Origin: Vulcanimicrobiota bacterium
Lineage (GTDB): Bacteria; Vulcanimicrobiota; Vulcanimicrobiia; Vulcanimicrobiales; Vulcanimicrobiaceae
Assembly: GCA_027307235.1 (NCBI GenBank)
Contig: DAHUXH010000014.1
Coordinates: forward strand, 1-64,000
Direction: 5' to 3'
Length of the DNA stretch: 64,000 bases
A model generated the notes under the pieces. That model was not told where the DNA came from, made no database searches, and saw only the letters and a program-made list of their open reading frames with translations. Shown here piece by piece: positions 10,801-43,205 of the stretch (its first letter is position 1; each line of letters starts with the position of its first letter). Made by a program: the position numbers and the translations under genes.

Positions 10801-13800
10801 ACGCCGCTGATCGCCAATTGCGTCGCGCCCGTGCCGCTCTGCACGATGCTTCCGTGCGCATTCGTCAACGCATTGGCTTGCAGATGAAGCAGCGCCCCCA
10901 TGACCGAGCCGTTCGAATTGTCGATCGACGACGCGGCAAGCGCGGTCGTGCCGGCCGCGGCGAGCGCGCCGGCGACATTATTCAGCGTACCGGCGACGCC
11001 GAGTTGAAGGTTTCCGGCGGACGTGATCTTACCGGAGTTTGCCAGCGTTCCCGCTGCGATGGCGACGTCACCGTTACCGGCAATCGTTCCGCTGTTGCTC
11101 ATGGCGCCGCTTACGCCGAGCGTCATGCCCGCGTTCGAGAGCGAGAATATCTGCCCACCATTGATCAAGGAGCTAGCGTTGAACGCTAACCCGCCGACGG
11201 TCTGCACCAGACCGCCTGTGTTGTCGAATGTTCCGGCGTCGGCAATCGTCCCTGACGCGCCCGCCGCGATCTGCCCACCGCTATTGTCAACGCTCGATGC
11301 CTGAAGGTTCAGCGCACCGCCGCTTGCGATGGTGCCCTTGGCATTCGTCAACGCACCGGTCGTCAGCGCGAAATTCAACCCATTGGTCGCGATCGTTCCA
11401 CCGGTGTTGTCGAGCATTCCGCGCAGCGCAATCTGCGTTGCGCCGTTTCCGCTCTGTGTTATCTGGCCGCCCGCGTTGCGCAACGTGCCGCCCTGCACGT
11501 TCAGCAATGCTGCGCCGATCGCACCACCCGTGTTATCGAGTGACGTGGCCGTCAACATTGCCGCACCGCCGGCTTGCAGGAGACCGCCTGCGTTCGTGAG
11601 ATCGCTTCCGCTTGCGACCTGCAAGTTGCCGACGGCCGTCACTTTCCCGCTGTTCTGAAGCGAACCCGCGGCAATCGACACGTTCCCATTACTGCCGATG
11701 GCACCGCTATTCGCAAGCGCGCCGTTGACCGCGAGCGTCATGCCGCCGCTTCCGAGCGCCATGAGGTTCCCGCCCAAGTTCTGAAGCGTTGCGGCAGTCA
11801 CCGCGAGCGAGCTTCCGGCTTGCATCGTGCCGCCGTTGTTGTTGAAGGCACCCGTTGCGACCGTGGCGGCCGTAGCAGCCTGGATCGTGCCGTTCCCATT
11901 TTCGATGCCGGCAGTACGTATGTTCAGTGCGCCGTTGCCGGCAATCAGGCCGCCGGCGTTCTGCAAGACCGCGTTTGCGGTGTCGATGGTGAGCGTGCCG
12001 GTGCCCGACAGCGCGATCGATCCGCCGGCATTGATCAACTGACCCGGCGCCAAGGCAAGGTCGAGCGCGTTCGAAGCGATTTGCCCCTTCGTATTATCGA
12101 GGGTGCCGCTGACCACGAGTTGGCCATCATTCGTGCCGCTCTGCACGATCACACCGCCGGTGTTGGTCAACGTGCCGGTTTGAACGTTGAGCAGACCACC
12201 GAATAGCGCGCCACCTGAATTGTCAATCGCCGATGCATCCAGTTCCAGCGTGCCACCGGCGCTGATCTTCCCGCTATTGCGCACCGTGTCGGCCGCGATG
12301 CTGACCGCACCATTTCCACCGATCACACCATCGTTGGCAAGCGCGCCGAGCACCGACAGCGTCATCCCGTCACCGGAGAGCGACACCACCTGCCCGCCGC
12401 TGTTGTTCAGTCCCACCGCATTGAATACCAGCCCCCCCACGGTCTGCACCGTGCCTTGGCTGTTGTCGAATGCACCCAACGATGCGATCGCGCCCGAACC
12501 TCCGGCCGCTATCGTTCCCTGCGAATTATCAACACCCGACGCGAGCAACGCGAGCGTGCCGTTCGTCGTGATTATTCCGCCGCTGTTCGCAAGCAATGAC
12601 ACGGGCGTCGCGATCGTCAGCGTTCCCGTGCCCGCGTGCGCGATCGTGCCGCCGATATTGATCAGTGTTGTCGGCGTAAGAGCGAGGTCGCTCGCATTGC
12701 TTTGCAACTTCCCATTGGTGTTGTCCAACGTCCCGCTTACCGCGATGCTGCCGACCCCGGTGCCCAGTTGCGTGATTTGCCCGGAAACGTTGCTCAGGTC
12801 GCCCGCTTGCAGATTCAGCAGACCGGCGCCAAGCACACCTTGCGTGTTGTCCAACGACGATGCCAGCACGTTCAGCGTGCCGGGTGCCGCTATCGTTCCG
12901 CTGTTTTGCACCACATTGCCGATGATGGATACGTCGCCGTTGCTACCGATGGTACCGCTATTCGAGAGAACGCCGGTAGCCAGTGACAACCCGTCGCTGC
13001 CCAGCGAGAGCAGTTGACCGCTATTCTGCATCGCTCCCGATGTCAACGAAAGCGCGCCCGCCGCCTGAACCACGCCCGCCGTATTATCGAACAGCCCGCC
13101 GACCGTGATCGTCGTCGCACCGGCCGTCGTCAACTGACCACCGGCGTTCAACATATTCGCACCGGTCGCCGTCAGACTGCCCGCGTTGGTCGTCGCGCCG
13201 CGAAGGTTTAGATCGCCACTGCCTGCGTTGAGCGTCGCCGATCCGCCGACGCCGGTGTGCGAGCCTGAAAGATCGATGCCGGAGCCGGAGAGCGAGAGTG
13301 AGCCTGCAGCGAAGTTCTGACCGTTCGCTGCGATCGCGCCCGGCGCAGCTACCGTCAAATCACCGCTGCCCGCAAATGTTCCGTCGGGATTGATGCCGGC
13401 CGCGAACGTTCCTGACGATGTTACCGACGAGGCGGTCACACCGAGATTCGAACCTGCGGCGATCGTACCGGAGTTGGCAAGCTGACCCTGTGCGTTCAGC
13501 GTCATCCCATCGCGTGCGTAGAGCGTGCCGCTCACCTGCGCGGCTCCGGCTGCGTTCAGCGTCGCGCTTCCAGCCGAGGTGATTGCGCCGCTCACCGTCA
13601 AATCGCCGTTGGCAGACAGCGTCAACGGCCCTGACTGTGTCGCGATCGTTCCCGCGCTATTGACGCCAACGCCCGCATCCGTAGCCAACAGGTAGATGCG
13701 GCCCGCATACATTCCGCCGAGATTCGAAACGTCGATCGCATACACGACCGGAGCCCCCGAGCCGGTTCCACCGATGTTCTGCGCGCCATGCGTCGCATAG

Positions 13801-27958: not shown

Positions 27959-29751
27959 CACGGCACGGATGGATCGTTGATCGCTTTGGCGACGGCGCGG
28001 TACGCATCGACGCGACCGCAGCCTTCCTTGGGATCGCCGATGTCCACCGCGCTTGCGCACAGCATCTGCCCGATCTGCGCCGGCGTCAAAGTGGGATTGA
28101 CGCCGCGCATGAGCGCGACGATACCGGCGACGTGCGGCGACGCTTGCGACGTTCCATTGATTTCGAGACGGCAATCGCCCACCGGCTCCGGCACCGTCGG
28201 CGTTGTCGCACCGCTCGGCGGGCTGCAATTGATGGTGCCGGGCGCCGCCGTCGTCGTCCAAATGTGTTCGATGTAATGCAGGGAGTCATTGTCGTTGCAA
28301 CTCGAAGACGTGCAGTTTTGCGCGTCCCCTCCGGGCGCAACCACACCCCATGTCGTCGCATGCGTGACGTCGTAGTCGGAGTAGCTCGCCACGCTTTCGG
28401 TCGTCGTGCCGGGGTTGGTGAAATCGTTGATCGCCGATGCGCCGACCGGGATGACGCCGGGGTCGCCGCCCGGACAATCGAGTGAGTTCGTGCCGTCATT
28501 CCCCGCCGCCGCGACCACGACGATGTTGTTCGCCACCGCGTTGCTCACAGCGGATGCAACCGCCGGATCGTCCGGGCACGGACCGCCGAGCGAGAGATTG
28601 ATCACGCTCACCTTCTGCGCGACGGCGTCGTTGATCGCCGCCGCGATGTCGGCCGTGGATGACTGACAGGCGGGTGAACTGGTTCCCGGCGGGCAGCCCG
28701 CGTCGGGGCCGCTGGTCGGCGGATCGGGAAAGACCTTGTACGGCAGGATCTTCGCGTTGTAGCCCGCGCCGACGAAGCCGATGCCGTTGTTCGTATCGGC
28801 GGCGGCGATGCCCGCGACGTCGGTTCCGTGGCCGTCGTTGTCGTGCATCGACTCGGTCGTGACTTCTTGTCCGAGCCCTTTGTCAAACACTTTCCCGGTT
28901 GAGAGCACCTTGTTCGCGAGATCCGGATGCGTGGGATCGACACCCGTGTCGATGACGCCGATCGTCATGCCGGTTCCGATCGCGCCCGCGTTCGCGACGC
29001 CAAGCGTGTTGTCGGCGGCAACCGCGTACGCCCACGCGTGCGAGAGGCAGATCAGATGCATGTCCCACTCGCCGCCGTCGCCGCTGTTTTGGAAAAACGG
29101 CGATGCCGGCGCGGGTTGTCCGGTCACGATCAAACCGTCGTAGAAATTGTCGTTGGGGAAATTCGCGGTGGTCGCCGAGGTTTTCGAACGATACATCGGG
29201 CGGCTCACCGAGACGACACCCGGCTGCGCCGAGAGCGCGGCGATCGCATTGCCTTCGGTGCCGGGCGCCACCGACAACACATGCGTCGTCAAACCTAAGC
29301 GATCGAAGGTCAGCGTGCTCGTGAGTTGACTGCCGACCGCGCGTTCTTGCACCGACATCGTCGAACGCTGCGTCATCGCAGCGGTGTGGTACGTCACCTC
29401 AATAGCGCCCGGAACGTAGGTCACGCCGCGCGCCGGCGGCGTGGCGCGATACCGCGGCAGGCCGCCATCCGGCTGCGTCACCGCGCTCATCGCCGCCTGC
29501 CGTGCGATGCTCTGCTGTTGGGTTGTCTGATTCACATTGCAGAACGCGCTCGCGACCGCCAGCGTGCGGCCCGTGGTGCCGATACTGTTGGTACCGCCCG
29601 CAGTCGCATTATTGCTCGGCAACGGCGTCGGCGTGGGCGCCGCGGTTGGCGGCGGCACGCTCGATCCCCCGCCTCCGCCGCCGCAGGCGGCGAGCAGCGC
29701 GGTGGCGAGCATCAGGGATGCCGTGCGGACGAGTGTCGATTGAAAGCTCAT
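27958..29751 (-). CDS. Subtilisin-like (S8) serine protease lipoprotein, first of a tandem pair
   Basis: 597 aa. The ATG at 29,751 follows AGAAGG and opens a lipoprotein signal (LATALLAACGG) with a Gly/Pro/Thr linker after the Cys. Residues ~110-210 resemble an inhibitor-type propeptide. The catalytic triad is visible in GVIDTGVDPTHPDLA (Asp, about 268), NDGHGTDVAG (His, about 307) and NGTSQASPHVAG (Ser, about 535). Several cysteines in loops (CPPG, CQSS, CPGG, CSPPSG) suggest disulfides after export. The stop overlaps the ATG of the second subtilase, so the two are made together. The pair is similar in layout but differs in N- and C-terminal parts, as expected from an old duplication. Confidence 0.9.
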   Translation of the reverse strand: MSFQSTLVRTASLMLATALLAACGGGGGGSSVPPPTAAPTPTPLPSNNATAGGTNSIGTTGRTLAVASAFCNVNQTTQQQSIARQAAMSAVTQPDGGLPRYRATPPARGVTYVPGAIEVTYHTAAMTQRSTMSVQERAVGSQLTSTLTFDRLGLTTHVLSVAPGTEGNAIAALSAQPGVVSVSRPMYRSKTSATTANFPNDNFYDGLIVTGQPAPASPFFQNSGDGGEWDMHLICLSHAWAYAVAADNTLGVANAGAIGTGMTIGVIDTGVDPTHPDLANKVLSTGKVFDKGLGQEVTTESMHDNDGHGTDVAGIAAADTNNGIGFVGAGYNAKILPYKVFPDPPTSGPDAGCPPGTSSPACQSSTADIAAAINDAVAQKVSVINLSLGGPCPDDPAVASAVSNAVANNIVVVAAAGNDGTNSLDCPGGDPGVIPVGASAINDFTNPGTTTESVASYSDYDVTHATTWGVVAPGGDAQNCTSSSCNDNDSLHYIEHIWTTTAAPGTINCSPPSGATTPTVPEPVGDCRLEINGTSQASPHVAGIVALMRGVNPTLTPAQIGQMLCASAVDIGDPKEGCGRVDAYRAVAKAINDPSVP

Positions 29752-29779
29752 ATTCGTACCTTCTCTACGATTGGTCGGT

Positions 29780-31033
29780 TCAAACGGTTCCCTGAGTGAG
29801 CCGTTGCCAGAGCCATCCGAGCGCGGCCACCGTCGCCCGCGCCTGAATTGCCGCACGATCCCCCCGGAACTGCGAATGGCGGGCGCTCGCGCCGGTCGCG
29901 TCGGCGAGCCCGAACCACACGAGCCCGACCGGCTTCTCCGGCGAGCCGCCCTCCGGCCCGGCGATCCCGGTCGTCGCGACCGCGTAGTCGGCGCCGAAAC
30001 GCCGGCGCGCCCCGCTCGCCATCTCGAGCACAACGCTCTCGCTCACCGCACCCTCACGCGCGATCTTCGCCGCATCGACGCCGAGACTTGCGACCTTCAC
30101 CGAATTCTCATAGGCGACCACGCCGCCGACGAAACTGCGCGACGCCCCCGGCACCGCCGTCAGCGCGGCCGCGATGCGTCCGCCGGTGCACGACTCGGCG
30201 ACGACGATGCGCTCGTTGCGCTGCCGCAACAGCCCGAGAATCGCCGATTCCAGCGTGTCGCCGTCGTAGCCGAAGACGTGACCGTCCAAGCGCGACACGA
30301 TCTTCTGTTCGAGCGGTTCGATCAGCGCGTGCGCCGCTTGGGCGCTGGCGGCCTTCGCCATGAGTTTCACGTCGCACCGGTACTCGTGCGCCAGCACGGC
30401 GATCTTCGGGTTCTCCATCGAAGCGAACAGATCGCCGATGCGGTGATCGATCTCCGACTCCGCGATTGCGACGGTGTGAATCACGCGCGTGAAAATCGCC
30501 TCACGCAGATTCCAGCGTGCTTGAAGCCAGGGCACGAGCTGTTCGGTCAGCATCGGTTTCATCTCGCGCGGAACGCCCGGCATGCACGCCACGAATTTCC
30601 CCTCGGCGCCGAACGCGATGAACCCGGGCGCCGTGCCGTTACGATTTTCGAGCACGATCGCGCCGCGCGGAATCTGCGCCTGCTTACGATTGTTTTCGCG
30701 CATCTCGCGCCGCATCGACGCGAAGAGCCGTTCCATCGCGAGCAGCGCCGGTTCGTGCATCTCGGTGTCACAACCGAGAGCATCGCAGACTGCTTCCTTG
30801 GTGAGGTCGTCGACGGTGGGGCCGAGACCACCGGTGGTGACGACGCCATCTGCGCGGGCGAGCGCTTCGCGCAGCGCATCGGCGATGCGCGCACGGTTGT
30901 CACCGACGGTCTGCGTCCGGTAGACGTCGATGCCCGCGTTCGCAAGCTGTGCTGCGATGAAGACCGCGTTGGTGTCGACGAGTTGCCCGAGCAACAGCTC
31001 GGTTCCGACCGAGATCAGCTCAACGTTCGGCAT
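29780..31033 (-). CDS. cinA: CinA: nicotinamide-nucleotide amidohydrolase / ADP-ribose pyrophosphatase-like protein
   Basis: 417 aa, the usual two-domain length. The N-terminal MoeA/MoaB-like domain (VELISVGTELLLGQ, TTGGLGPTVDD) belongs to the COG1058 group with ADP-ribose or CoA pyrophosphatase activity. The C-terminal domain (AESCTGGRIAAAL near residue 278, TTGIAGPEGG) is PncC-type NMN deamidase, which returns NMN to NaMN. It overlaps the precorrin-2 dehydrogenase-like gene by 14 nt and sits two genes downstream of nadE, so its NMN recycling product can feed NAD synthesis. Older literature links cinA to competence and recA in Gram-positive bacteria; there is no recA here. Confidence 0.92.
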   Translation of the reverse strand: MPNVELISVGTELLLGQLVDTNAVFIAAQLANAGIDVYRTQTVGDNRARIADALREALARADGVVTTGGLGPTVDDLTKEAVCDALGCDTEMHEPALLAMERLFASMRREMRENNRKQAQIPRGAIVLENRNGTAPGFIAFGAEGKFVACMPGVPREMKPMLTEQLVPWLQARWNLREAIFTRVIHTVAIAESEIDHRIGDLFASMENPKIAVLAHEYRCDVKLMAKAASAQAAHALIEPLEQKIVSRLDGHVFGYDGDTLESAILGLLRQRNERIVVAESCTGGRIAAALTAVPGASRSFVGGVVAYENSVKVASLGVDAAKIAREGAVSESVVLEMASGARRRFGADYAVATTGIAGPEGGSPEKPVGLVWFGLADATGASARHSQFRGDRAAIQARATVAALGWLWQRLTQGTV

Positions 31034-31598
31034 CGAACCAGCGCGGATACGTGAACCGCACCTCGGCCGAGAATCCCTCCGCCGCCTCGATCATCGCCGT
31101 ACGGCGAATCTCCGATTCCTCCGCGGACGGATGCTCGCGTTTGGTCTGCGCGCGCATCTGCGCCAACCGCTCGACGAAGCGTGCGAAGGTCGCATCCATC
31201 GCCGCTTGCAACCCTTCTTTGAGCCGTTTGCCGACGCGCGGCGCAAGACCGGTGGTCGAGATGGCGATGCGCACCGGGCCGGCCTTGGCGATCGCCGCCA
31301 TCGCGACGAATCCGAACGCCGGTTGATCGATGCAGCACAGCAGAAAGCCGTGCACGTCGGCGAGCGCGCGCAGACGCGACGACAGCGCGGCGTCCTGCGG
31401 AGTCGAGATCACGAAGAAGGCGCCGGTCACGTCGTCGTCGCGCAGCGACGCGACGTCCTGCACCCACAGCACATTCGCGCCCGCTTCGCGCAACGCGGCG
31501 TCTTTCTCGATCGCTTCGCGATCGCCGACGGGACCGATGACGACGCACCGGCGTCCCTGGAGATTCAGACTCACCGGAAAGAACGGCGTGTAGGACAT
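31020..31598 (-). CDS. Precorrin-2 dehydrogenase / sirohydrochlorin ferrochelatase-like protein (Met8p/SirC type)
   Basis: 192 aa from the ATG at 31,598, one nucleotide after the nadE stop. Upstream in-frame sequence is Cys/Arg-rich and lacks a domain, so I exclude it. The family oxidises precorrin-2 to sirohydrochlorin with NAD+ on the way to sirohaem. Landmarks are PVSLNLQGRRCVVIG, a Rossmann strand and glycine, FFVISTPQDAAL and the characteristic AISTTGLAPRVGKRLKEGL. The usual GGG of the nucleotide loop is altered (IGPVGDRE), so NAD binding may be weaker or different. It overlaps cinA by 14 nt. Confidence 0.8.
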   Translation of the reverse strand: MSYTPFFPVSLNLQGRRCVVIGPVGDREAIEKDAALREAGANVLWVQDVASLRDDDVTGAFFVISTPQDAALSSRLRALADVHGFLLCCIDQPAFGFVAMAAIAKAGPVRIAISTTGLAPRVGKRLKEGLQAAMDATFARFVERLAQMRAQTKREHPSAEESEIRRTAMIEAAEGFSAEVRFTYPRWFDAER

Positions 31599-31599
31599 C

Positions 31600-32448
31600 T
31601 CAGTAGTCGACCGGACGCAGATAAAACTCGTTGATGGCGGTGTTGGTGAGCATCGCCGTCGTCGGCAGATGCCGCTTCCAATGCGTGCCTTCCACACGCC
31701 GCCGAACGAGCTGCACGTCGGCCGCTGCAAAGCCGTGCGCGACCAGTTGGTCGTCACTGTAGCCGAGCAGCAGCTGCGCGAGAATCGCGTCGGCGCGCGC
31801 GTACGTGATGCCCAGATCGGCTTCGTCAGTTTGGCGAGCTTCCAGATCGGCGCTCGGCGCTTTCTCGATCAGCGCGGGCGGTACGCCCAGATAGCGCGCC
31901 AGCTCCCACACTTGCGTCTTGAAGAGATCGCCGAGCGGGTTGACCGGCGGTGCGTCGTCGGCGTGCCAGGTGAAGTATCCGAACAATCGCTCGGTCTTGT
32001 TCCCGGTGCCGATCGGCAGTGCGTCGAGTTTGGCCGATTGATCGAAGAGCACGATCATGCGCGTGCGCGCCATGACGTTGCCGCGCCGGCGCGCGTCGGC
32101 GTCCGGCTCGTTCTGCAGATAGCCGTCCACCGCGGCCGTGATGTCGAGGGTGCGCTCGTGGATGCCGAGCGCTTCGACGACCAAGGCCGCGTCGGCGAGA
32201 CTGGCCGGGCTTGACGTACGATACGGCAAGCGAAACGCGAAGACGTTGTGCGCCCCGAGCGCGCGTGCGCACAAGTATGCCGTCACCGCCGAGTCGACGC
32301 CGCCCGAAAGACCGATCACCGCGCGTGCGATCCCGCGCCGTCCGAGAAGTTCGTCGCGTAAGAATGTTTCGAGCCAGCGTGCCGCAAGCGGCGCATTGAT
32401 GCGCGGCGGGTGCAGCGCGGTGCGCGGTGCTTCAACGATCGGAAGCAT
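31600..32448 (-). CDS. nadE: NAD+ synthase, ammonia-transferring subunit/domain
   Basis: 282 aa. It converts nicotinate adenine dinucleotide to NAD+ with ATP and ammonia. The P-loop SGGVDS lies near residues 48-53, and later GTGNKTERLFGYFTWHAD and PLGDLFKTQVW are typical of the family. The protein contains only the synthetase domain. The amidohydrolase-like gene immediately upstream overlaps it by 17 nt and could supply ammonia from glutamine. I start at the ATG at 32,448; a GTG directly before it would add one residue. In order the run is glutaminase-like gene, nadE, precorrin-2 dehydrogenase-like gene, cinA. Confidence 0.93.
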   Translation of the reverse strand: MLPIVEAPRTALHPPRINAPLAARWLETFLRDELLGRRGIARAVIGLSGGVDSAVTAYLCARALGAHNVFAFRLPYRTSSPASLADAALVVEALGIHERTLDITAAVDGYLQNEPDADARRRGNVMARTRMIVLFDQSAKLDALPIGTGNKTERLFGYFTWHADDAPPVNPLGDLFKTQVWELARYLGVPPALIEKAPSADLEARQTDEADLGITYARADAILAQLLLGYSDDQLVAHGFAAADVQLVRRRVEGTHWKRHLPTTAMLTNTAINEFYLRPVDY

Positions 32449-33352
32449 CACGCCGGCCGCGTGGAAGCGGCAACTCCTCGTCGAGCAGCAGATCGGGCAG
32501 CACGGCGCGCAGATCGCCGAGCAGCGGAAGATTCGCGCGCGCGAGATCGATCTCGCGCGGATCGAGCGCCGCGCGCACGATGCAGGCTTCGTCGGGCGGC
32601 GCGGCGACCACCGTGTTGCCGCGCGGATCGACGATGCGCGACGTCCCGCTCATGCCTTTCCCGCCTTCAAAACCGGTCAGACCCGCATATACGACGTAGA
32701 CGCCGTGTTCCGCCGCGATGTTTTCGAGAATCTCGCGCCAGCGCACGATGCTCTCCAACTCGTCGCCGCCCTCGATGCCGCGCCCCGGCGCGGCGCTCGG
32801 CACGAGCAGCACGCGCGCGCCCTTGAGCGCCGCGATCGTCGGCACGATCGCATGCCAAATGTCTTCGCAGATCAGCATCGCGGTCGCCCCCAGGGACGAG
32901 GCGAAGACGCCCATGCGGTGGCCGCGTGAGAGAAAGCGTTCTTCGTCGAAGACGCCGTACGTCGGCAAGAACAGCTTGCGATGCAGGTGCAGCACCTGCG
33001 CCCGGTCGCTCTCGACGCGCACGTACGCGGCGCTGTTGTAGTACGTGCCGCCGTCGTTTTCGAAGAAACCGCAGGCGATCTCGACCGGTCGAGTCGCGCC
33101 GGCTTCACGCCACATGCGCGCCAGATCGTCGGCGAAGTGCTGCACGGGCAACGCGAGATCGTAGACCGCGCCTTCGAGAAAGTAGCCGGTCAGCGCGGCT
33201 TCGGGCAGCACGATCACGTCAGCGGCGCCGTCGTCCATGACGAGCGCAAACGCATCGCGCAGGTCGTTCAGATTCTCGCTGTAGCGTCCCTTGCGCGGCT
33301 TCGTCTGCACGATCGCGACGCGCACGGGGCCGCCGATGCCGTTACCCGACAC
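32432..33352 (-). CDS. Nitrilase-fold amidohydrolase, probable separate glutaminase partner of NadE
   Basis: 306 aa. The nitrilase catalytic set is complete: Glu51 (LPEAALTGY), Lys126 (HRKLFLPTYGVFDE) and Cys162 (ICEDIWH). The lysine motif LPTYGVFDE is close to that of the N-terminal glutaminase domain of glutamine-dependent NAD synthetases (LPNYGVFDE in many). Here the domain is a separate protein whose stop codon lies inside the start region of nadE. Reaction expected: glutamine to glutamate plus ammonia, or amide hydrolysis in general. The start is a GTG overlapping the flavoprotein gene by 11 nt. Other nitrilase-family specificities cannot be excluded. Confidence 0.85.
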   Translation of the reverse strand: MSGNGIGGPVRVAIVQTKPRKGRYSENLNDLRDAFALVMDDGAADVIVLPEAALTGYFLEGAVYDLALPVQHFADDLARMWREAGATRPVEIACGFFENDGGTYYNSAAYVRVESDRAQVLHLHRKLFLPTYGVFDEERFLSRGHRMGVFASSLGATAMLICEDIWHAIVPTIAALKGARVLLVPSAAPGRGIEGGDELESIVRWREILENIAAEHGVYVVYAGLTGFEGGKGMSGTSRIVDPRGNTVVAAPPDEACIVRAALDPREIDLARANLPLLGDLRAVLPDLLLDEELPLPRGRRDASDR

Positions 33353-34760
33353 CGGCCCAACTCGCCCGCGCTTGCGCGGCAGCCGCGTCGAGCTTCGCCG
33401 CGCAGTCCTCGGCCGGATACGTCCAGATCTCCGCGAGCGTCGGATGCAGATGCGGAATACGCATGAACTCGTGCACCGTGGCGCGGTAGTTCATCGCCAC
33501 GATGACTTCGTGAATCAGTTCGGCCGCCTGCGGGCCGATGATCGACGCGCCGATGATGCGGCCGTCGGGCGCGGATGCCAGCATCTTCACGAACCCTTTG
33601 GTCTTGTTCAAGCATTCGGCTTTGCCGTGCTCGGCAAAGTCGTACGTGCCCGCGACGTAGGGGATGCCGTTGTTCTGCAACGCGCGCTCGGTCTCACCGA
33701 CCACCGCGATCTGCGGGTCGGTGAAGATGGTATGCGTCTTCACCAAGTCGTAGACCGCGCGCTCGTCACCGCCGCCGATCGCGTTGCGCGCGGCAATCTC
33801 GCCCTGGTAGATCGCTACGTGCACGAGTTGGTAGAGACCGGTGACGTCGCCGACCGCGAAGATGTTCGGGTTGGACGTGCGCAGCGTGTCGTCGACCTCG
33901 ATGCCCTTGATCGCATGATAGGCGACACCGGCCTTCTCGAAATCGAAACCCTCCACGTTCGGCACGCGCCCGAGCGCGTAGAAAATCTCGTCGGCTTCGA
34001 TCGCTCCCTCGACGCCATCGACGACGACGTAGACGAATTTCTTGCCGTCGCGCCTTTCCACGCGCAACAGACGGGCGCCGGTCACGACGTCGATGCCGTC
34101 CTCGCGAAAGTACTGCGTGAGCGCGTGCCCGATGTCGTGATCTTCACCCGAGAGCAAATGGTCGGCGCGAATCACCATCGTCGTCTTCGCGCCCATGCGC
34201 GCCAGATGCTGACCGAGTTCGCATCCCACATACCCGCCGCCGAGCACGACCACCGACTTCGGCGTGTGCGCCAGTTCGAGCACCTCGTCGCTCGTGAGAT
34301 AGCCGGCTTGCGCGAGTCCCGGAATCGCCGGCGGCGCGACGATGCTCCCGGTGTTGATGATGAACTTCGGCGCGGTGATCACGTCCTCACCGGCCTGCAA
34401 TCGCGTCGGCGAAAGAAAGCGCGCCTCGCCACGGTACAGCGGAAAGCGCGAGATGCCATCGATGCGGTAGTCGGCGAACTCTTTGACCAGCGCGCGCTTG
34501 CGTTCGAGCACGTACGGCTCGTCGATGCGGATGCTGCCGACGTGCACGCCGAGACCTTTGGCCTCGCGCGCATCGGCCAGCGCGTCGCTGGTCGCCAGCA
34601 GCGCTTTGCTCGGCATGCAGCCGCGCAGAATGCACAATCCGCCGAGGGGGCCTTTGTCTACCAATGCGACGTTCGCGCCGAGGTCGCGCGCGGTGCGCGC
34701 GGCCGCGAAGCCGCCCGAACCGGCTCCGACGACGATCAGATCGTATGCCGGTTCGCTCAT
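33342..34760 (-). CDS. Class I pyridine-nucleotide disulfide oxidoreductase (mercuric reductase / dihydrolipoamide dehydrogenase-like)
   Basis: 472 aa, a homodimeric flavoprotein. The FAD loop is VGAGSGGFAAA (residues 11-21), the redox pair is GLCILRGCMPSK (Cys43 and Cys48), the NAD(P) loop is VVVLGGGYVGCELG, and the second FAD motif is NIFAVGDVTG. The C-terminal interface has HLHPTLAEIW, the usual His plus acid. It differs from E3 subunits in having no 2-oxo-acid dehydrogenase genes nearby, so the disulfide substrate is unknown. Mercuric-reductase-specific C-terminal cysteines are not seen. glpX lies 4 nt upstream and the nitrilase-like gene overlaps downstream, so this is part of the same operon. 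Confidence 0.9.
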   Translation of the reverse strand: MSEPAYDLIVVGAGSGGFAAARTARDLGANVALVDKGPLGGLCILRGCMPSKALLATSDALADAREAKGLGVHVGSIRIDEPYVLERKRALVKEFADYRIDGISRFPLYRGEARFLSPTRLQAGEDVITAPKFIINTGSIVAPPAIPGLAQAGYLTSDEVLELAHTPKSVVVLGGGYVGCELGQHLARMGAKTTMVIRADHLLSGEDHDIGHALTQYFREDGIDVVTGARLLRVERRDGKKFVYVVVDGVEGAIEADEIFYALGRVPNVEGFDFEKAGVAYHAIKGIEVDDTLRTSNPNIFAVGDVTGLYQLVHVAIYQGEIAARNAIGGGDERAVYDLVKTHTIFTDPQIAVVGETERALQNNGIPYVAGTYDFAEHGKAECLNKTKGFVKMLASAPDGRIIGASIIGPQAAELIHEVIVAMNYRATVHEFMRIPHLHPTLAEIWTYPAEDCAAKLDAAAAQARASWAGVG

Positions 34761-34764
34761 GACG

Positions 34765-35715
34765 TCAGCGCACGGCGCGAGGCCGCGCGGTCAAACGATG
34801 CGTCGATTCCACGAACCGCACCGTGCCGGTGGCCTGCACGATGATCGAATGCGTGCGCGCATGGTTGCCGAAGAACCGGACGCCGCGCAACAAATCGCCG
34901 TCGGTGATGCCGGTCGCGCAAAACACAACCTCGTTGCTCTTGACGAGATCGTCGATCATCAGCACGCGATCGAGATCACCGAAACCCATCGCCTGCGCGC
35001 GCGCCGCTTCTTCCGCGTTGCGCGGCTTGAGGCGTCCCATGAAGTTGCCGCCCAGACACTTGATCGCGGCGGCAGCGAGCACGCCTTCGGGCGCGCCGCC
35101 GATGCCCATTGCGACGTGAACGCCGGTCGATTCAATCGTCGTCGCGATACAGGCATCGACGTCGCCGTCGGAGATCAGCTTGATGCGCGCACCGGCACTG
35201 CGAACGGCGGCGATCAAATCGGCGTGACGCGGACGGTCCAAGATGACGACACACACGTCGTTGATCGGCTTTTCGAGGGCGTTCGCGACCGCTTCCAGAT
35301 TCTCGCGCACCGGTGCGTCGATGTGCACGTACGGCGCGGCCTTGGGTCCGACCGCGAGTTTCTGCATGTACGAATCGGGCGCGTGCAGCAGACCGCCGCG
35401 CTCGGCGATCGCCATGACCGCGATCGAGTTGGGCAATCCGTTGGCGACGAGATTCGTGCCTTCGACCGGATCGACGGCGATGTCCACCGCCCGACCGCCC
35501 GCGCCGAGTTCTTCACCGATGAACAGCATGGGCGCTTCGTCGCGCTCGCCCTCGCCGATGACGATACGGCCCGATATCTCCATCTGGCCGAGCGCTTCGC
35601 GCATCTGCTCGACGGCCGAACCGTCGGCGGCGTCGCGCTCGCCGCGACCCATCCAGCGTGAGGCGGCAAGTGCGGCGCTCTCGGTCACTGTCACAAAATC
35701 GAGAGAACGTACCAT
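34765..35715 (-). CDS. glpX: Fructose-1,6-bisphosphatase class II (GlpX)
   Basis: 316 aa from the ATG at 35,715 (MVRSLDFVTVTE). A longer frame to 35,742 is possible but adds only a few residues. It hydrolyses fructose-1,6-bisphosphate in gluconeogenesis, with sedoheptulose-bisphosphatase activity in some relatives. Visible features are IGEGERDEAPM (residues 53-63) and the metal-binding VDPVEGTN (81-88; Asp82, Glu85), plus SDGDVDACI and GGAPEGVLAAA. It begins the minus-strand operon that leads to cinA. The promoter should lie in the 40-nt gap shared with the divergent mannosyltransferase gene. Confidence 0.93.
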   Translation of the reverse strand: MVRSLDFVTVTESAALAASRWMGRGERDAADGSAVEQMREALGQMEISGRIVIGEGERDEAPMLFIGEELGAGGRAVDIAVDPVEGTNLVANGLPNSIAVMAIAERGGLLHAPDSYMQKLAVGPKAAPYVHIDAPVRENLEAVANALEKPINDVCVVILDRPRHADLIAAVRSAGARIKLISDGDVDACIATTIESTGVHVAMGIGGAPEGVLAAAAIKCLGGNFMGRLKPRNAEEAARAQAMGFGDLDRVLMIDDLVKSNEVVFCATGITDGDLLRGVRFFGNHARTHSIIVQATGTVRFVESTHRLTARPRAVR

Positions 35716-35755
35716 CAGGCGCCAGCTACAAGGGAAGGCCAACGATTCCTTTAAG

Positions 35756-37283: not shown

Positions 37284-37688
37284 GTGCTCTCGTCCATCGC
37301 TCAACGCCGCGGCGTGCGGCAATTCGTGAAATTCGGCATCGTCGGTGCCTCCGGCCTGATCGTCAATTTCATCATCGCGCACGCCCTCGAACGGAGCACC
37401 TCGTTCTCCGGCTTCGTCGATTTCGCGATCGGCTTCATGGCGGGCGGCGTGTCGAACTACGGGCTCAACCGCGTGTGGACGTTTCGCTCGCAGCGCAATC
37501 CCGCGATCGAGGGCGCGCAGTTCCTGGTCGTCTCGCTGGTCGCGCTGGTCTTCGGCAAGGTGGTCTTCACGCTGGCCGATCACTACCGGTTTCATCACTT
37601 CACGACGACATGGCTTGCGGCCACGCTCGCAGGCGTTTTCGTCAACTTCTTCATGAATAAATATTGGACGTTCAAGCACCTGAACTGA
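37284..37688 (+). CDS. GtrA-family small membrane protein
   Basis: 134 aa with four predicted transmembrane segments. GtrA proteins help move or retain polyprenyl-phosphate-linked sugars, as in O-antigen glucosylation, and often pair with a glycosyltransferase. FVKFGIVGASGLIVN and SNYGLNRVWTFR, with the repeated theme NKYWTF, are the family hallmarks. A GTG at 37,284 is the likely start, 1 nt after the previous stop. A TTG at 37,275 is also in frame. Its 3' end overlaps the next glycosyltransferase gene by about 25 nt, which supports the pairing. Confidence 0.85.
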   Translation: MLSSIAQRRGVRQFVKFGIVGASGLIVNFIIAHALERSTSFSGFVDFAIGFMAGGVSNYGLNRVWTFRSQRNPAIEGAQFLVVSLVALVFGKVVFTLADHYRFHHFTTTWLAATLAGVFVNFFMNKYWTFKHLN

Positions 37689-39316
37689 CGCTCTTCGGCC
37701 GCCGCGTTTCGTGGTGGCCGATCGGCCTGCTGATTATCGTGCTTGTCGCTGCCGCTCTGCGGCTCGCGCACGTCACCGCGCCCATACTCGACCATCCGGC
37801 CTGGCGGCAGGGCGACACCGCGAGCATTGCGCGCAACTTCGCGCTCTTGCGCTACAACATTCTGTATCCGCAGACGATGTACAACGGCCCGCCGCCCAAC
37901 TACGTCGAGCTGGAGTTGCAGTTGGTGCCGTTCCTCGCCGCGACGCTCTACAAGATCGTCGGCGTCCACGCGGTCATCGGCCGTTTGATTACGATTGCGT
38001 TCAGCACCGCCACCGTTGCGGTCGTCGGCATCTTCGCGCGCTGGATGTTTCGCTCGTGGATCGCCGGCCTGTTCGCCGCGATCTTCTACGCGATCGCTCC
38101 GGGAAGCATCTACTACGGCCGCACGTTCACGCCGGATGCGACGATGGTCTTCTTCCTCACCGCCGCGCTCTACGTGAGCGCGCGTTTCTTGGTTGAAGAC
38201 GAAGCACTCTCGCCGCGCAATCTCGCGCGCGCGACCGGGTTGTTGACGCTCGCCTATCTCACCAAGCCGGTGGCGCTGGTCGCGTTCCTGCCGGTCGCGG
38301 CGCTGGCATTCGAACGCTGGCGCGCGGGCCGGACCGTGCGAGCGAGCGCGATCGCGGTGCTGCTCGCCGTGCCGCTCTTCGTGCTGTGGTCGTACGACCG
38401 GGCAGTTGCGGCACATGCGGAATGGCATTGGGCCAGCGGCATCACGACGCTGCACGTGCTTCCCGCGTTGCGCGACGCATTCACGTCGCCGCACGCTTTC
38501 ATCGCGAAGGCGCAAGCATGTGCCGGCGCCCTCGGTATGCTGTGGCACACCATGCTCGGCCCGGCCATCACTCTGCTCGCCATCGCCGGATTCGCGCTGC
38601 TGCCGTGGTCGAACGCGCGATCGAAGACGCTGCTATGGACATGGCTTGCCGGCGGACTGCTCTACACGTATGCGGTCGTGACCGTCGAACGCGTCGACTA
38701 CTATCTCTTTCTGATGGTGCCGCTGGCCGCGCTGGTCGCGGGCCTCCTGTTCGCGAGCGCCGTGCGCGCGATCGAGACGCAGCACCTGCCCGCGCCGCCG
38801 CGCACCGCGCTCTACGCAGTCATCGGCATCGCGTTGCTCGCGATGCTGCTGCAGAGCCGCTCGATCGCGGCACCGTACTACCGCTACGAGCCGTCCGTTC
38901 TCGAAAACGCGCGCATGCTCGACCGGCGGCTTCCGCGTAACGCGATCGTGGTCATCGGCCATTACGGCCCCGACGTGCAGTACTTCGTCAACCGTTTCGG
39001 CTGGGAAGAAGACCCGCTGCTGTGGACGCCGTTCGACGAACAGAGCGCGATCCGCAAGGGCGCCCGCTTCTTCATCTCCATCGAAGACAACCGCTTGCGC
39101 CGCAACCTCGAACTGTGCGCGTGGATGCAGCGCTTTCCCGTGATCGACGCCGGAACGACGTGGACGGTGTACGATACAGACCCTTCGCTCGTCGCGCCTG
39201 ACGCCGAACGGTGGTGGCAGCAGTTTCGCAGCGCCGGCCGCTCCGGTCGCGGCCGCGCCTTTCTCGACGCGCACGACATGTGCAAGGAACACGATCATGC
39301 AACCACTCGAGCTTGA
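37664..39316 (+). CDS. GT39/ArnT-like integral-membrane glycosyltransferase
   Basis: 550 aa from a TTG at 37,664 (MDVQAPEL), overlapping the GtrA-like gene. It has about ten to twelve hydrophobic segments followed by a soluble C-terminal part of roughly 150 residues. The early loop LDHPAWRQGDTASIARNF carries an acidic residue in the position used by ArnT/PMT enzymes. GRTFTPDATMVFF and YLTKPVALVAFLP are typical. Such enzymes take a sugar from a polyprenyl-phosphate carrier on the outer face of the inner membrane. Acceptor and sugar are unknown. The start is uncertain because no ATG or good Shine-Dalgarno site precedes the first membrane segment. Confidence 0.8.
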   Translation: MDVQAPELTLFGRRVSWWPIGLLIIVLVAAALRLAHVTAPILDHPAWRQGDTASIARNFALLRYNILYPQTMYNGPPPNYVELELQLVPFLAATLYKIVGVHAVIGRLITIAFSTATVAVVGIFARWMFRSWIAGLFAAIFYAIAPGSIYYGRTFTPDATMVFFLTAALYVSARFLVEDEALSPRNLARATGLLTLAYLTKPVALVAFLPVAALAFERWRAGRTVRASAIAVLLAVPLFVLWSYDRAVAAHAEWHWASGITTLHVLPALRDAFTSPHAFIAKAQACAGALGMLWHTMLGPAITLLAIAGFALLPWSNARSKTLLWTWLAGGLLYTYAVVTVERVDYYLFLMVPLAALVAGLLFASAVRAIETQHLPAPPRTALYAVIGIALLAMLLQSRSIAAPYYRYEPSVLENARMLDRRLPRNAIVVIGHYGPDVQYFVNRFGWEEDPLLWTPFDEQSAIRKGARFFISIEDNRLRRNLELCAWMQRFPVIDAGTTWTVYDTDPSLVAPDAERWWQQFRSAGRSGRGRAFLDAHDMCKEHDHATTRA

Positions 39317-40358
39317 CGGCGTCTGGATGTGGTCGTCCTGGCAAGACGACCGCGCGATGGCGTTCAATAGTTATTTCATCGCTCGTGAGGACGGGAACAT
39401 CGCCGTCGATCCGTTGCCGCCGTCTCCCGCGACGCTGGCGGAGATGGAACGCCTGGGCGGCGTGCGCACGATCGTCTTGACCAACCGCGATCATCGTCGC
39501 GACGCCGCGGCCTTTCGCGAGCGCTTCGGTGCGCAGGTGATCGCTTCGGCACGCGAAGCCGGCCTCTTCGACGTGCCGATCGACGCGACGGTACGCGATG
39601 GCGAGGAGGTCTTCCCCGGCGCTATCGCCGTTGCGATCGAACACGGCAAGACGCCCGGTGAAATCGCGATCTATCTTCCGCGCAGCGAGACCGCGATCGT
39701 CGGCGATGCGATCATCGGCTCCCCGGCCGGAAGCCTGTCGTTTCTCGCCGACGAGAAGATCGGCGATCCGGTCGCGCTCGCGCTCTCGCTGCGGCGTCTG
39801 TGGGCGCGGCGGCTGCGCGCGCTGTTGCTCTGCGATGGCCAGCCGCTCTTTTGCGGTGCCGACGATGCGCTCGCGACGCTGCTCGAAACGCACGGCGGTC
39901 CCGCCGTCAATCGTATCAACATCGACGATGCCGTGCTCATGGCCGATCGCGATCACGCCCACTACGTGAGTCACAACCGTGAAATCGGACTGCTCATCGG
40001 CGCACGCAAACTTGGATATCAGGTGACGGAACTGCCGCCGGGCGCCACCTACTGTCCGCTGCACGCGCATGCCAAGGAAGAAGAGATGTTCTTCGTTCTT
40101 TCCGGCGAGCCGACGATTCGCACGACACGCGGCTCGCTGCGCGCTCGGCCGGGCGATGTCATCGCCTTCCCGACGGGCGATCGCGGCGCCCACCACGTGC
40201 TCAATGAAACCGGCGCCGTCTGCCGCCTGCTGCTCTTAGGCATGCACTGCCATGACGAAGTTGCGTACTACCCCGACTCAAACAAACTGCTGATTCGCGA
40301 CCGCAAGCTGATGCTGCGCGCCGAGCCGAACCTCGACTACTTCGACGGCGAAGAGTAA
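39297..40358 (+). CDS. Fusion of a metallo-beta-lactamase-like domain and a cupin domain
   Basis: 353 aa. The N-terminal ~200 residues resemble an MBL fold (IVLTNRDHRRDAAAFRERFG, EHGKTPGEIAIYL, TAIVGDAIIG). The canonical HxHxDH metal motif is reduced to RDHRRD, so full zinc hydrolase activity is doubtful. Residues about 225-345 form a cupin with metal-type motifs PLHAHAKEEEMFFVLSG (about 254-270), then GDVIAFPTGDRGAHHVLNE. The cupin half could act as an isomerase, dioxygenase or sensor. It overlaps the end of the glycosyltransferase gene by 20 nt, so it is the fourth gene of the glycan operon. I do not recognise this exact domain pairing as a named protein. Confidence 0.75.
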   Translation: MQPLELDGVWMWSSWQDDRAMAFNSYFIAREDGNIAVDPLPPSPATLAEMERLGGVRTIVLTNRDHRRDAAAFRERFGAQVIASAREAGLFDVPIDATVRDGEEVFPGAIAVAIEHGKTPGEIAIYLPRSETAIVGDAIIGSPAGSLSFLADEKIGDPVALALSLRRLWARRLRALLLCDGQPLFCGADDALATLLETHGGPAVNRINIDDAVLMADRDHAHYVSHNREIGLLIGARKLGYQVTELPPGATYCPLHAHAKEEEMFFVLSGEPTIRTTRGSLRARPGDVIAFPTGDRGAHHVLNETGAVCRLLLLGMHCHDEVAYYPDSNKLLIRDRKLMLRAEPNLDYFDGEE

Positions 40359-40374: not shown

Positions 40375-41034
40375 CTACGGCAGCGGGAGCAGGGAGCCCG
40401 CGGTGGACGTGCCTTCCGAGGTGCCGGGTTCGCGCGGCGCACCGGATTCGACGAGCTGGCGGTAGGCGATCAATCGATTGGTGTTGCGGGCAAGATCGAG
40501 TTGCAGGTCATACGATTTCTTGATCGCGTCGGTGAGGTCGTCGGAGTTGTAGGTGTAGGAAAAACGCTGGATCGCGGTGAGGAGCGCGCGGTTTGAGACG
40601 TCGAGCTGCTGGTATGCGCGCGCGATCGTCACTCCGGCTTCACGGTAGGTCGGATAGTTGGAGACCACGATCTCGCGTTTGAGGCGCGCTTCTTCGATCG
40701 TCGCGCGCAAGCCCTGAAGCCGGACGCTGGCGGGATCGTATTTCGCGGCCTCGTTCAAAGCCGAGAGCGCATCGTCAAACTGACCCTTCGTGTAGTCGAG
40801 CTGCGCCAACTCCGCTGAAGCGTCGACGTAGCCGGCGCGAGCGCGTTGATCGGCGGGATCGACCCGCAAGGCAAGCCGGTAGGACAACTCGGCGTCTTGA
40901 ACGTTTCCGCGCGCGAGCGCCACCTCGCCCTGATGCACGCGTGTGTCGACGATCCATCGTTCGATCGGGCCGGCGCAGCCGGTGGATGCGAGCACCGAGC
41001 ACGCAGCGACGATCAGGGAGAGCCGTTTAACCAT
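40375..41034 (-). CDS. TPR-repeat lipoprotein
   Basis: 219 aa. The start MVKRLSLIVAA gives a lipobox ending in STGC, so the protein should be lipidated and face the periplasm. ATGs at 41,040 and further upstream are alternatives. Residues ~30-130 contain two to three tetratricopeptide-like helical pairs (GEVALARGNVQDAELSYRLAL, then ALSALNEAAKYDPASV), which usually mediate protein-protein contacts. A longer coiled or helical region follows, with an unstructured tail. The frame overlaps the stop of the Amj flippase gene by a few nucleotides. Its partner is unknown; an envelope scaffold role near the flippase is inference. Confidence 0.75.
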   Translation of the reverse strand: MVKRLSLIVAACSVLASTGCAGPIERWIVDTRVHQGEVALARGNVQDAELSYRLALRVDPADQRARAGYVDASAELAQLDYTKGQFDDALSALNEAAKYDPASVRLQGLRATIEEARLKREIVVSNYPTYREAGVTIARAYQQLDVSNRALLTAIQRFSYTYNSDDLTDAIKKSYDLQLDLARNTNRLIAYRQLVESGAPREPGTSEGTSTAGSLLPLP

Positions 41035-41959
41035 GGACATGATTGAAGAATCGTGCAACCTCTTCGATGACGACGGCGGCCGGATAGAAGATCACCTGCG
41101 AGAGAAGCGTTCCCACAATCGCCGTCAACGACAGATAGAACACCATCGCCCGGACTTCCTCGATGGTGCGCCGCCCGTGAATGGCTTGATCGGAGATCAT
41201 CGAGGACGACGGATCGACGAACAGGGTGAACGCGATCGTGCCGATCCCGTTGATGATGCCGGAGAGCCCGAGCGCCGTGCGGGCGGCGTCCACGTCGAGC
41301 ACGGAGGCGTAGTACGAGGCCTGCACGCCGATCGCGTAGACGCCGGTGACCACCACGTTGAAGACCAGCATGCGCATCGGCAGCGAGCGCCAGTCGAACT
41401 CGAGCAGACGCCGCATGGACGGCATACGCTGCGCCTTCACGACCTGGGCGATCACCGCCGGATCGAACAAGCGCACCGCGGAATGCGGAACCGAGCCGCG
41501 CTGCTCGAACGATGAGATCCCGCGCCGGAAGAGATAGGTGAACATCGGCAAGAAGATCGAGAAGACGATCATGCCGAGGGTTCCCGCGAGAATGATCAGG
41601 CGAAGCTGAAGATCGAAATTGTGCTGAAACTGCGCGACACCGGCCGCGTCATTCGCGTGCTGCAAGACGCCGACCGCGTGTCCCGCTCCATCTGAGAGCG
41701 GCCCGACCATGACGACGGAGAACAAGTTCGCCAGGCGCCCGGCGGTCATGAACAGGTTGAACAGCGAGATCGAGGTCGCGATGCGGTGCGTCTGCACGCC
41801 GGCCAGCCGCGCCGCGTAGGCGCCGATGGTCACACCCTGCACGATGAACGTAATCGCCATCGCACCGGCGAGTTTCCAGGACCACAGGTGAGGCGTGACG
41901 TCGACGACCTCTTTGGTCGTCGTTACGATCGTGACGAGGTGATCGCCGCTAAGCGGCAC
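41027..41959 (-). CDS. Amj-family lipid II flippase (DUF2837)
   Basis: 310 aa from a GTG at 41,959 that overlaps the M16 protease stop. An ATG later (MAITFIVQ) would give a protein closer to the ~270 aa of Bacillus Amj. Several hydrophobic segments are present. The hallmarks are AYAARLAGVQTHRIATSISLFNLFMTAGRLANLF, matching the conserved front of the family. Amj moves the lipid-linked cell-wall precursor across the cytoplasmic membrane and can replace MurJ. No murJ gene is in this window. The overlaps with the M16 and TPR lipoprotein genes suggest co-expression. Confidence 0.82.
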   Translation of the reverse strand: MPLSGDHLVTIVTTTKEVVDVTPHLWSWKLAGAMAITFIVQGVTIGAYAARLAGVQTHRIATSISLFNLFMTAGRLANLFSVVMVGPLSDGAGHAVGVLQHANDAAGVAQFQHNFDLQLRLIILAGTLGMIVFSIFLPMFTYLFRRGISSFEQRGSVPHSAVRLFDPAVIAQVVKAQRMPSMRRLLEFDWRSLPMRMLVFNVVVTGVYAIGVQASYYASVLDVDAARTALGLSGIINGIGTIAFTLFVDPSSSMISDQAIHGRRTIEEVRAMVFYLSLTAIVGTLLSQVIFYPAAVVIEEVARFFNHVHG

Positions 41960-43205
41960 TGCTGCGCCATGCGACGGCCGCTTCGTCGAGCGGACCGAGA
42001 ACGCACAACCCGACGCGTTCGTCACCCAAGAGTTCGGCCGCCAGCGACCGCACGTCCTCGGCGCTGACCGCGTCGATGCGCTCTTCGATCTCTTCAGGCG
42101 TGACGTGACGGCCGAGCGCGAACTCATTGCGGCCTAAGCGAATCATCCGGCTCGACGTGGACTCAAGCGAGAGGGTGATGCTGCCTTTGATGTGTTCTTT
42201 TGCCAGGTGCAGTTCGTCGTCGCTCACGCGGTGTTCGCGAAGCAACTCGAACTGCTCGGCGATGAGATCGACGCACGGCTGCACGTGCTCGGGCGATGTT
42301 CCGGCATAGACGCCGAAGAGCCCGGCCCCGCGATAACCAGCTTGAAACGTGTAGACCGAGTACACCAGGCCGCGCTTCTCGCGAATCTCTTGAAAGAGCC
42401 GGCTCGACATCCCGCCGCCCAGGATCGTGTCGATGATCGAGAGCACGTACCGGCGCTCGTCGCGCACCGAGAGCCCGCCGACGCCAAGCACGAGATGGGC
42501 TTGCTCGCTGTCTTTGCGGCGAACGAAGGTGTCCGGGATGGTCATCGGCGATTCCGCGTCCGGCAGCGCGCACGTTCCCGAAAAATCTCTGAACTGCGCC
42601 GAGGCCAATGCAACGATCTGATCGTGATCGACATTCCCGGCGGCCGCGACCAGCACGGAGTTGGGAGCGTAATGGCGGCGCATGTGCGCGCGCAAGTCGT
42701 CGCTCGTCAACCGGGTTACCGTCTCTTCGAATCCGATCGTCGGATCGCCGAGATTCGCTCCGCTCCACATCGTCTGGATGAAGAGGTCGTGGATCAGCTC
42801 GTCGGGCGTGTCCTCGTACATCTTGATCTCTTCGAGGACGACGTTCTGTTCTTTGGCAAGCTCGTGCGGATCGAACGTCGAGCGCAAGAACATGTCGGAG
42901 AGCACGTCCATCGCGAGCGGCACGTGCGTGTCGATCGTGCGCGCGTAGTAGCAGGTGGTCTCTTTGTCGGTGAACGCATTGAGATTGCCGCCGATCCGGT
43001 CCATCGTCTCGGCGATCTCGCGCGCCGAGCGCGTCGTCGTTCCCTTGAAGAGCATGTGCTCGACCAAATGCGAGACGCCGCGCTGCGCTCGCTGCTCGGC
43101 CGCCGAGCCTACATCTGCCCAAATGCCGATCGATGCCGAGCGGAACGCGGGCATCGTCTCGGTGATGACGCGCACGCCGTTGCCGAGGATTGTCTTCTTA
43201 TACAC
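41949..43205 (-). CDS. M16-family zinc metallopeptidase (pitrilysin/processing-peptidase type)
   Basis: 418 aa. The inverted zinc motif HLVEH (His46, Glu49, His50) is present, with the downstream Glu in EEIKMYED. Two homologous halves are visible as in single-chain processing peptidases. The RGLVYSVYTFQAGYRGAG segment belongs to the C-terminal half. The start is a GTG at 43,205, overlapping the upstream gene by 8 nt. Bacterial homologues near ispG/dxr or proS are common and cytoplasmic. The substrate is unknown. It overlaps the flippase gene downstream. Confidence 0.9.
   Translation of the reverse strand: MYKKTILGNGVRVITETMPAFRSASIGIWADVGSAAEQRAQRGVSHLVEHMLFKGTTTRSAREIAETMDRIGGNLNAFTDKETTCYYARTIDTHVPLAMDVLSDMFLRSTFDPHELAKEQNVVLEEIKMYEDTPDELIHDLFIQTMWSGANLGDPTIGFEETVTRLTSDDLRAHMRRHYAPNSVLVAAAGNVDHDQIVALASAQFRDFSGTCALPDAESPMTIPDTFVRRKDSEQAHLVLGVGGLSVRDERRYVLSIIDTILGGGMSSRLFQEIREKRGLVYSVYTFQAGYRGAGLFGVYAGTSPEHVQPCVDLIAEQFELLREHRVSDDELHLAKEHIKGSITLSLESTSSRMIRLGRNEFALGRHVTPEEIEERIDAVSAEDVRSLAAELLGDERVGLCVLGPLDEAAVAWRSSAA

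Follow-up and report, generated by a model that had tools for sequence, protein, structure and literature searches.

A fusion of a metallo-beta-lactamase-fold domain with a remodelled site and a metal-type cupin

The window analysed here, a 64,000-nt stretch of DNA from a Vulcanimicrobiota bacterium, carries a gene for a 353-aa protein that joins a metallo-beta-lactamase (MBL)-fold half to a cupin (Table 1) and is present as one copy in this genome. A sequence-only reading had proposed this very layout, which the open reading frame (ORF) and Pfam matches bear out, and the residue strings it quoted are all present (RDHRRD at residues 64–69, PLHAHAKEEE at 254–263, GAHHVLNE at 297–304). The frame opens with ATG, 8 nt after the end of the putative ribosome-binding site, and orthologue alignments run from this start codon, with many orthologues starting MQ. 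A chance or misframed ORF is ruled out by the Pfam matches, the orthologues in many genomes and the alignment from the start codon; both halves were matched at 36–60% identity in 63 other genomes (149 searched), far above chance. As the sequence-only reading had also observed, the gene overlaps an upstream glycosyltransferase ORF, namely by 20 nt and in a different frame. Farther upstream, on the opposite strand (27961–35742, minus), lie genes for a subtilase, CinA, NAD synthase, a carbon-nitrogen hydrolase, a flavin disulphide oxidoreductase and a GlpX fructose bisphosphatase; none of these housekeeping-type genes hints at the fusion gene's role. The window further encodes an Amj (‘alternate to MurJ’) family protein (41030–42127, minus; PF10997, E 9e-68), whose gene adjoins one for an M16 peptidase, and a very large filamentous-haemagglutinin-type exoprotein (1809–14495, minus), whose 4228-aa ORF matched PF05860 (TPS secretion domain, E 9e-49) and PF13332 (haemagglutinin repeat, E 1.5e-40).

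Table 1. Features of the fusion gene and its upstream neighbour, in window coordinates
Feature	Position	Strand	Basis
PMT_2-type membrane glycosyltransferase ORF, upstream; not a conserved neighbour	37664..39316	+	ORF, Pfam, tblastn
AAGGA, ribosome-binding-site-like, within the upstream ORF (putative)	39284..39288	+	sequence
MBL-fold (PF14597) + cupin fusion gene, 353 aa	39297..40358	+	ORF, Pfam, orthologue alignment
Lactamase_B_5 domain, residues 1–200	39297..39896	+	Pfam; sequence and structure match to 2p97
TNRDHRR, residues 62–68, in place of zinc motif THxHxDH	39480..39500	+	profile alignments, conservation
GKTPGE, residues 117–122; K118 replaces the His of GHTPG	39645..39662	+	profile alignments, conservation
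GD, residues 136–137; D137 at the metal-bridging Asp position	39702..39707	+	profile alignments
CDG, residues 179–181 (GDG in most orthologues); D180 replaces the last metal His (GHG)	39831..39839	+	alignment to canonical relative L175
Junction NRINIDD, residues 205–211	39909..39929	+	resembles the N-terminus of two standalone cupins (INLDEL, MNLDEL)
Cupin half, residues 206–353	39912..40355	+	Pfam; sequence and structure match to 3l2h
Cupin motif 1, PLHAHAKEEE, residues 254–263 (H256, H258, E262)	40056..40085	+	alignments
Cupin motif 2, GAHHVLNE, residues 297–304 (H299, N303)	40185..40208	+	alignments
Tail motif YPDSNK, residues 325–330	40269..40286	+	common to standalone cupins

The N-terminal half matched PF14597 (Lactamase_B_5) well above the curated cut-off (residues 2–198; E 1.2e-34; 119.9 bits against 28.4) and also matched PF00753 (E 3.9e-08); PF14597 was matched by all 48 family members at E 0.001; the C-terminal half matched Cupin_2 (residues 243–313; E 3e-12). 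An AlphaFold2 model computed with the 48 family members reached a mean pLDDT of 94.4 and a pTM of 0.88. Structure comparison of its residues 1–200 revealed the MBL fold, with Z ~20 to LACTB2, IMP-1 and flavodiiron chains, among many other MBL-fold chains. Over the whole N-terminal half, the model aligned with 2p97 (Ava_3068 of Anabaena variabilis, a PF14597 protein) at Z 30.9 and an rmsd of 1.3 across 199 residues, a match also found by sequence (E 1.6e-27) and by profile (E 2.6e-52). This protein likewise has TNSDHVR, KTPGE and GDG, but it is a standalone chain of 201 aa that lacks the cupin. It was deposited as a putative metal-dependent hydrolase; judging by their titles, the papers naming it concern crystallographic phasing. 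The whole C-terminal half aligned with 3l2h (AFE_0303; E 2.5e-12, Z 20.3, rmsd 2.0 across 149 residues) and 3i7d (SPO2919; E 1.2e-11, Z 19.8). Both share its HxH..E and H..N motifs but are standalone proteins, and their designation as (putative) sugar phosphate isomerases is the depositors' title only. A CDD family named cupin_SPO2919-like may cover this half. The junction is similar to the beginnings of two standalone cupins, which suggests that the fusion arose from two complete proteins joined end to end.

In profile alignments with canonical MBL proteins, the first zinc His corresponds to N63, the GHTPG His to K118 and the bridging Asp to D137, while D180 fell on the last His in an alignment to the cyanobacterial relative L175 (THRDDVADH, GHSPG, GD, GHG). 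For D65, H66 and R68 the mapping depends on the alignment: two profile alignments gap the loop and set D65–H66 on the DH pair, whereas the L175 alignment does not. Among the motifs of di-metal MBL hydrolases, HxHxDH, the GHTPG His and the final metal His are thus absent and only the bridging Asp is present; a di-metal reading of this half fails three of four motif tests. L175 itself, a weak PF14597 relative and a cyanobacterial MBL with the unusual THRDDVADH, might represent an intermediate between canonical MBL and PF14597 sites.

Conservation of the altered residues was scored in 32 fused orthologues, the high-scoring copies of the window's class (L028, which is cut, was left out). N63, D65, H66, R68, K118 and D180 each occur in 31 of them and E122 and D137 in all 32, one and the same sequence (L013) being the exception at every changed position. 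In 16 standalone PF14597 proteins (10 from the HMM search and 6 from a motif-based scan), N63, H66, R68, K118, E122, D137 and D180 are invariant, and residue 65 is Asp in 13 and Glu in 3. Such conservation in fused and standalone copies rules out a zinc-motif degeneration peculiar to the window gene. The sequence-only reading was right that the zinc motif is altered, but ‘degenerate’ misses its nature: far from decaying, it is a conserved hallmark of PF14597 (31–32 of 32 fused and nearly all standalone copies). Judged by its residues, the altered MBL site is remodelled and conserved rather than randomly decayed. N63, D65, H66, R68, K118, D137 and D180 form a putative single pocket, whose ligand could be one metal, an anion held between R68 and K118, or an organic molecule. 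In most lineages, and in the standalone proteins, this pocket matches the cupin ligands in conservation, from which we infer that the MBL half performs its own function in them.

Metal-type cupins follow the consensus HxH(x)3E and H(x)3N, and the C-terminal half matches both parts (H256, H258, E262; H299, N303). H256, E262, E263, H299 and N303 are present in all 32 fused orthologues, confirming the earlier impression of intact metal-type motifs. Position 258 is His in 26 and Glu in 6, so the metal site may differ between lineages; the copies with Glu for the second His of HxH are L003, L011, L013, L025, L026 and L029. The C-terminal cupin of every copy examined was shown to hold a complete set of predicted metal-ligand residues (H256, H258 or Glu, E262, H299).

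To place the fusion phylogenetically, matches were counted across phyla. In the window's phylum, both halves were matched—starting by residue 8 and ending at or after residue 330—at 65 places in 64 of 149 genomes, all within three families of one class. PF14597 scored above its cut-off in 68 of 147 genomes of this phylum, at 69 places, 64 of which lie in frames of at least 340 aa, indicating that here PF14597 nearly always comes with the cupin; at least one of the five shorter frames lies at a contig end (G056, on what appears to be the contig of L043). A scan of public genomes used patterns holding TNRDH or GDA.GxPAG and kept the best 80 of 161 relatives, of which 72 are fused, 2 cut and 6 standalone. 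Pocket counts from these 80 loci are biased by the patterns and were left unused, except for the 6 standalone proteins included in the 16 above. The 72 fused proteins come from Vulcanimicrobiota (30), Poribacteria (23), Chloroflexota (5), Gemmatimonadota (5), Latescibacterota (4), contigs labelled Pseudomonadota (2) and unplaced contigs (3), and the 6 standalone ones from Nitrospirota (4), Myxococcota (1) and Melainabacteria (1). The closest named relatives belong to Candidatus Eremiobacterota (NCBI phylum Vulcanimicrobiota). The two contigs with a Pseudomonadota label (L041 and L062; Proteobacteria, Rhodospirillales) carry a fused protein that falls within the Eremiobacterota clade, for which reason their labels are probably wrong (mislabelled bins).

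Searches of further phyla returned both forms. In the Poribacteria phylum (that of the genome carrying L068), 70 of 84 genomes scored above the PF14597 cut-off, and 69 of the 84 had a match at ≤7.7e-29 whose frame spans 353 aa or more; for the phylum of one Chloroflexota genome, 9 of 301 genomes matched at E 1.6e-46 or better, in frames of at least 362 aa. The phylum of L102 (cyanobacteria in the wide sense) yielded 16 strong full-length matches in 194 genomes, all in frames of 198–231 aa, and the strong cyanobacterial and Nitrospirota matches are the first half alone. A quick MBL-half tree with 67 rows requires 2 changes between the fused and standalone states, suggesting very few fusions or splits. 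Within the flanks searched, none of the six standalone PF14597 loci had a cupin gene of this kind nearby. A scan of viral contigs gave 13 pattern matches and no relative of the fusion protein. Among plasmids there were 39 matching records, all with coverage below 80% of the query; all of the matches listed involve the cupin half only, and no common theme was seen in the surroundings of three plasmid standalone cupins.

In some orthologues the PF14597 score is far below that of the whole protein, and 16 regions were taken with these included. The window's class provided 46 distinct fused copies (duplicates L188, the same place as L032, and L191, the same as L014, being set aside), which were scored for the seven pocket residues: 37 keep at least six and 9 keep none to two, a proportion that is no frequency because several pocket-less copies were picked for their low PF14597 score. 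All 46 retain H256, E262, H299 and a His or Glu at position 258. In eight of the nine pocket-less copies the MBL half is 29–35% and the cupin half 45–56% identical to the window's protein; in the ninth, L013, the figures are 43% and 54%. On the cupin-half tree the nine copies represent 3 changes, a single origin being rejected (p-AU 3.5e-44), and the quick MBL-half tree agrees (3 changes; single clade, p-AU 4.8e-4). A further 28 copies were drawn from HMM hits in two other phyla: 20 from the Poribacteria phylum, mostly lower-scoring and including the lowest full-length score, and 8 from the Chloroflexota phylum (8 of 9 strong rows); some of them lie on contigs also met in the public-genome scan. 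The pocket is kept in 27 and the cupin residues in all 28. The one exception, L195 (the lowest full-length Poribacteria score), retains only R68 and D137 of the seven and groups with the intact L054 (support 100/99), bringing the count to 4 changes over 46 labelled rows, with 4 also in the bootstrap range. The putative pocket has thus been lost at least four times with the predicted cupin ligands retained, and the reverse pattern was found in none of the 74 copies. This one-sidedness suggests that the cupin is indispensable and the MBL pocket an extra function.

Substitution rates were compared between the two halves (L188 was left out here and from the loss trees). At amino-acid-changing sites, the ratio of MBL-half to cupin-half rates was 1.45–2.81 in the largest pocket-less clade (21 non-independent pairs). 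Among 630 intact pairs, from which L190, a second copy in its genome, was excluded, the ratio had a median of 0.97 and did not exceed 1.48. With a dN/dS of ~0.2–0.3 in the three pairs computed from that clade, the MBL half is evidently maintained as a protein after pocket loss. The ratio for L186 was about 1.7, and the speed-up was absent from L013 when set against its intact sister L003 (1.10).

On balance, we regard it as probable that the cupin is the protein's working core, with the lactamase-fold half serving as an accessory domain that has a remodelled pocket. The cupin's metal centre would do the main job, as a mononuclear metalloenzyme or a metal-dependent binder, presumably on a small polar metabolite. 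The remodelled pocket of the accessory domain would bind a ligand, an anion or one metal ion; it would help in most lineages, and where it was lost the MBL domain would persist as a scaffold for the cupin. Two observations run against this division of labour: across most lineages, and among standalone proteins, the pocket is conserved to the same degree as the cupin ligands, and the MBL half of L013 is not faster.

Another reading is a bifunctional enzyme, which we judge possible but doubtful. Here the MBL half would be catalytic too, holding one metal in the second site (D65, H66, D137, D180) in the manner of subclass B2 beta-lactamases, and the two halves would perform consecutive steps. N63 at the first His position, the acidic site-2 residues D137 and D180 and the near-complete conservation of the pocket, standalone proteins included, fit this scheme, and an excerpt of the literature on B2 enzymes describes them as active only with one zinc and as having Asn116 (PMC5018959). 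Yet N63 and K118 take the place of site-1 His residues and D180 that of the last His, the placement of D65–H66 on the DH pair appears in two profile alignments but not in that with L175, and at least four losses of the pocket left the cupin in place. A bolder version, to which we give slightly less credence still, has in the MBL half a novel type of active site that comprises N-x-[DE]-H-x-R, K, E, D and D, is devoid of a di-zinc centre and works in series with the cupin metal centre. Were this true, lineages with no need of the first step would keep the empty domain as a scaffold, and the same enzyme would exist in natural one-step and two-step forms.

That neither half is an enzyme—the cupin binding a small ligand and the MBL-fold half relaying the signal as part of a sensor or regulator—strikes us as improbable. 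Twelve of the 48 family members do match AraC_binding (PF02311), a ligand-binding cupin, but these matches are weaker (best E 9e-06) than those to Cupin_2, found in 44 of 48 (best E 4.3e-17; the other four are standalone first halves). Moreover, Pfam detects no DNA-binding domain in the fusion protein, and a metal-ligand set present in every copy examined speaks for metal chemistry.

When the six window neighbours from both sides were searched by tblastn (E 1e-3) against the flanks of 133 loci, only the window's own copy was returned, with none at the other 132; flanks spanned 1.5 kb at many loci, up to 6 kb at public-genome loci and ~9 kb at ten, shorter at contig ends, and the farther of the six could be tested only in the 6-kb and ~9-kb sets. 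Nor did ORF clustering around the 80 public-genome loci bring in any neighbour from the window, the only window frame joined being the one opposite the fusion gene itself. Pfam-named neighbours comprise uvrB, aspartyl protease, ABC transporter and alpha-mannosidase genes in Eremiobacterota and, elsewhere, sulfatase, 2-hydroxyacid dehydrogenase, GFO/IDH/MocA, sugar-isomerase-like, isochorismatase and D-serine-dehydratase-like genes; the neighbour genes are crude ORF picks, 10 of 30 scanned having no Pfam match at 1e-5. Outside Eremiobacterota there is a tilt towards small-molecule and sugar catabolism, but it is too loose to support a claim. The glycan-linked role in a glycosyltransferase operon that the sequence-only reading suggested, to which the 20-nt overlap with the PMT_2-type gene and a GtrA gene upstream had pointed, is very unlikely given that the six neighbours are absent beside the 132 other loci within the flanks searched and that the genes named beside other copies include those for uvrB, an aspartyl protease, an ABC transporter, a sulfatase and a dehydrogenase.

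Widespread though it is, the fusion protein is uncharacterised; it occurs in most searched genomes of one phylum (69 of 84) and commonly in another (64 of 149). Among open-licence papers, outside of which most of the subscription literature lies, we found no characterised or named protein with the PF14597–cupin layout, no paper naming PF14597 or Lactamase_B_5, and none on the cupin structures 3l2h and 3i7d. The earlier statement that no named protein of this layout was known therefore stands for open-licence papers, but with 64 of 149 genomes of the phylum carrying it, the layout is not rare. Both parts are known families; what is new is the spread of the fusion, its remodelled site and the repeated loss of that site. 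Natural pocket-less copies beside close pocket-bearing relatives provide ready controls and make the role of the remodelled MBL site directly testable. Meanwhile, such proteins should not be annotated as metallo-hydrolases.

Two groups of MBL-fold proteins with altered metal sites invite comparison, not membership, and we claim no beta-lactamase identity. Subclass B2 beta-lactamases such as CphA combine the MBL fold with an Asn (Asn116) in place of a site-1 His and are active only with one zinc, bound in the second site; CphA has His118, His196, Cys221 and His263 (excerpt of PMC5018959). The fusion protein shares the Asn at the first zinc-His position and possibly the one-metal principle, but has K118, D137 and D180 at the last three positions and lacks His118. 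If Cys221 occupies the bridging-Asp position, as we assume, the B2 zinc ligands Cys221 and His263 are both absent from the N-terminal half, with D137 and D180 in their stead. In some flavodiiron proteins, of the cyanobacterial Flv1 type, the di-metal ligands are likewise replaced within an MBL fold, Lys and Arg being among the replacements (excerpt of PMC6616624). An Flv1 structure (6h0d) was among the fold matches of our model; flavodiiron proteins differ in their partners, flavodoxin and flavin reductase in place of a cupin, and in the replacement residues themselves.
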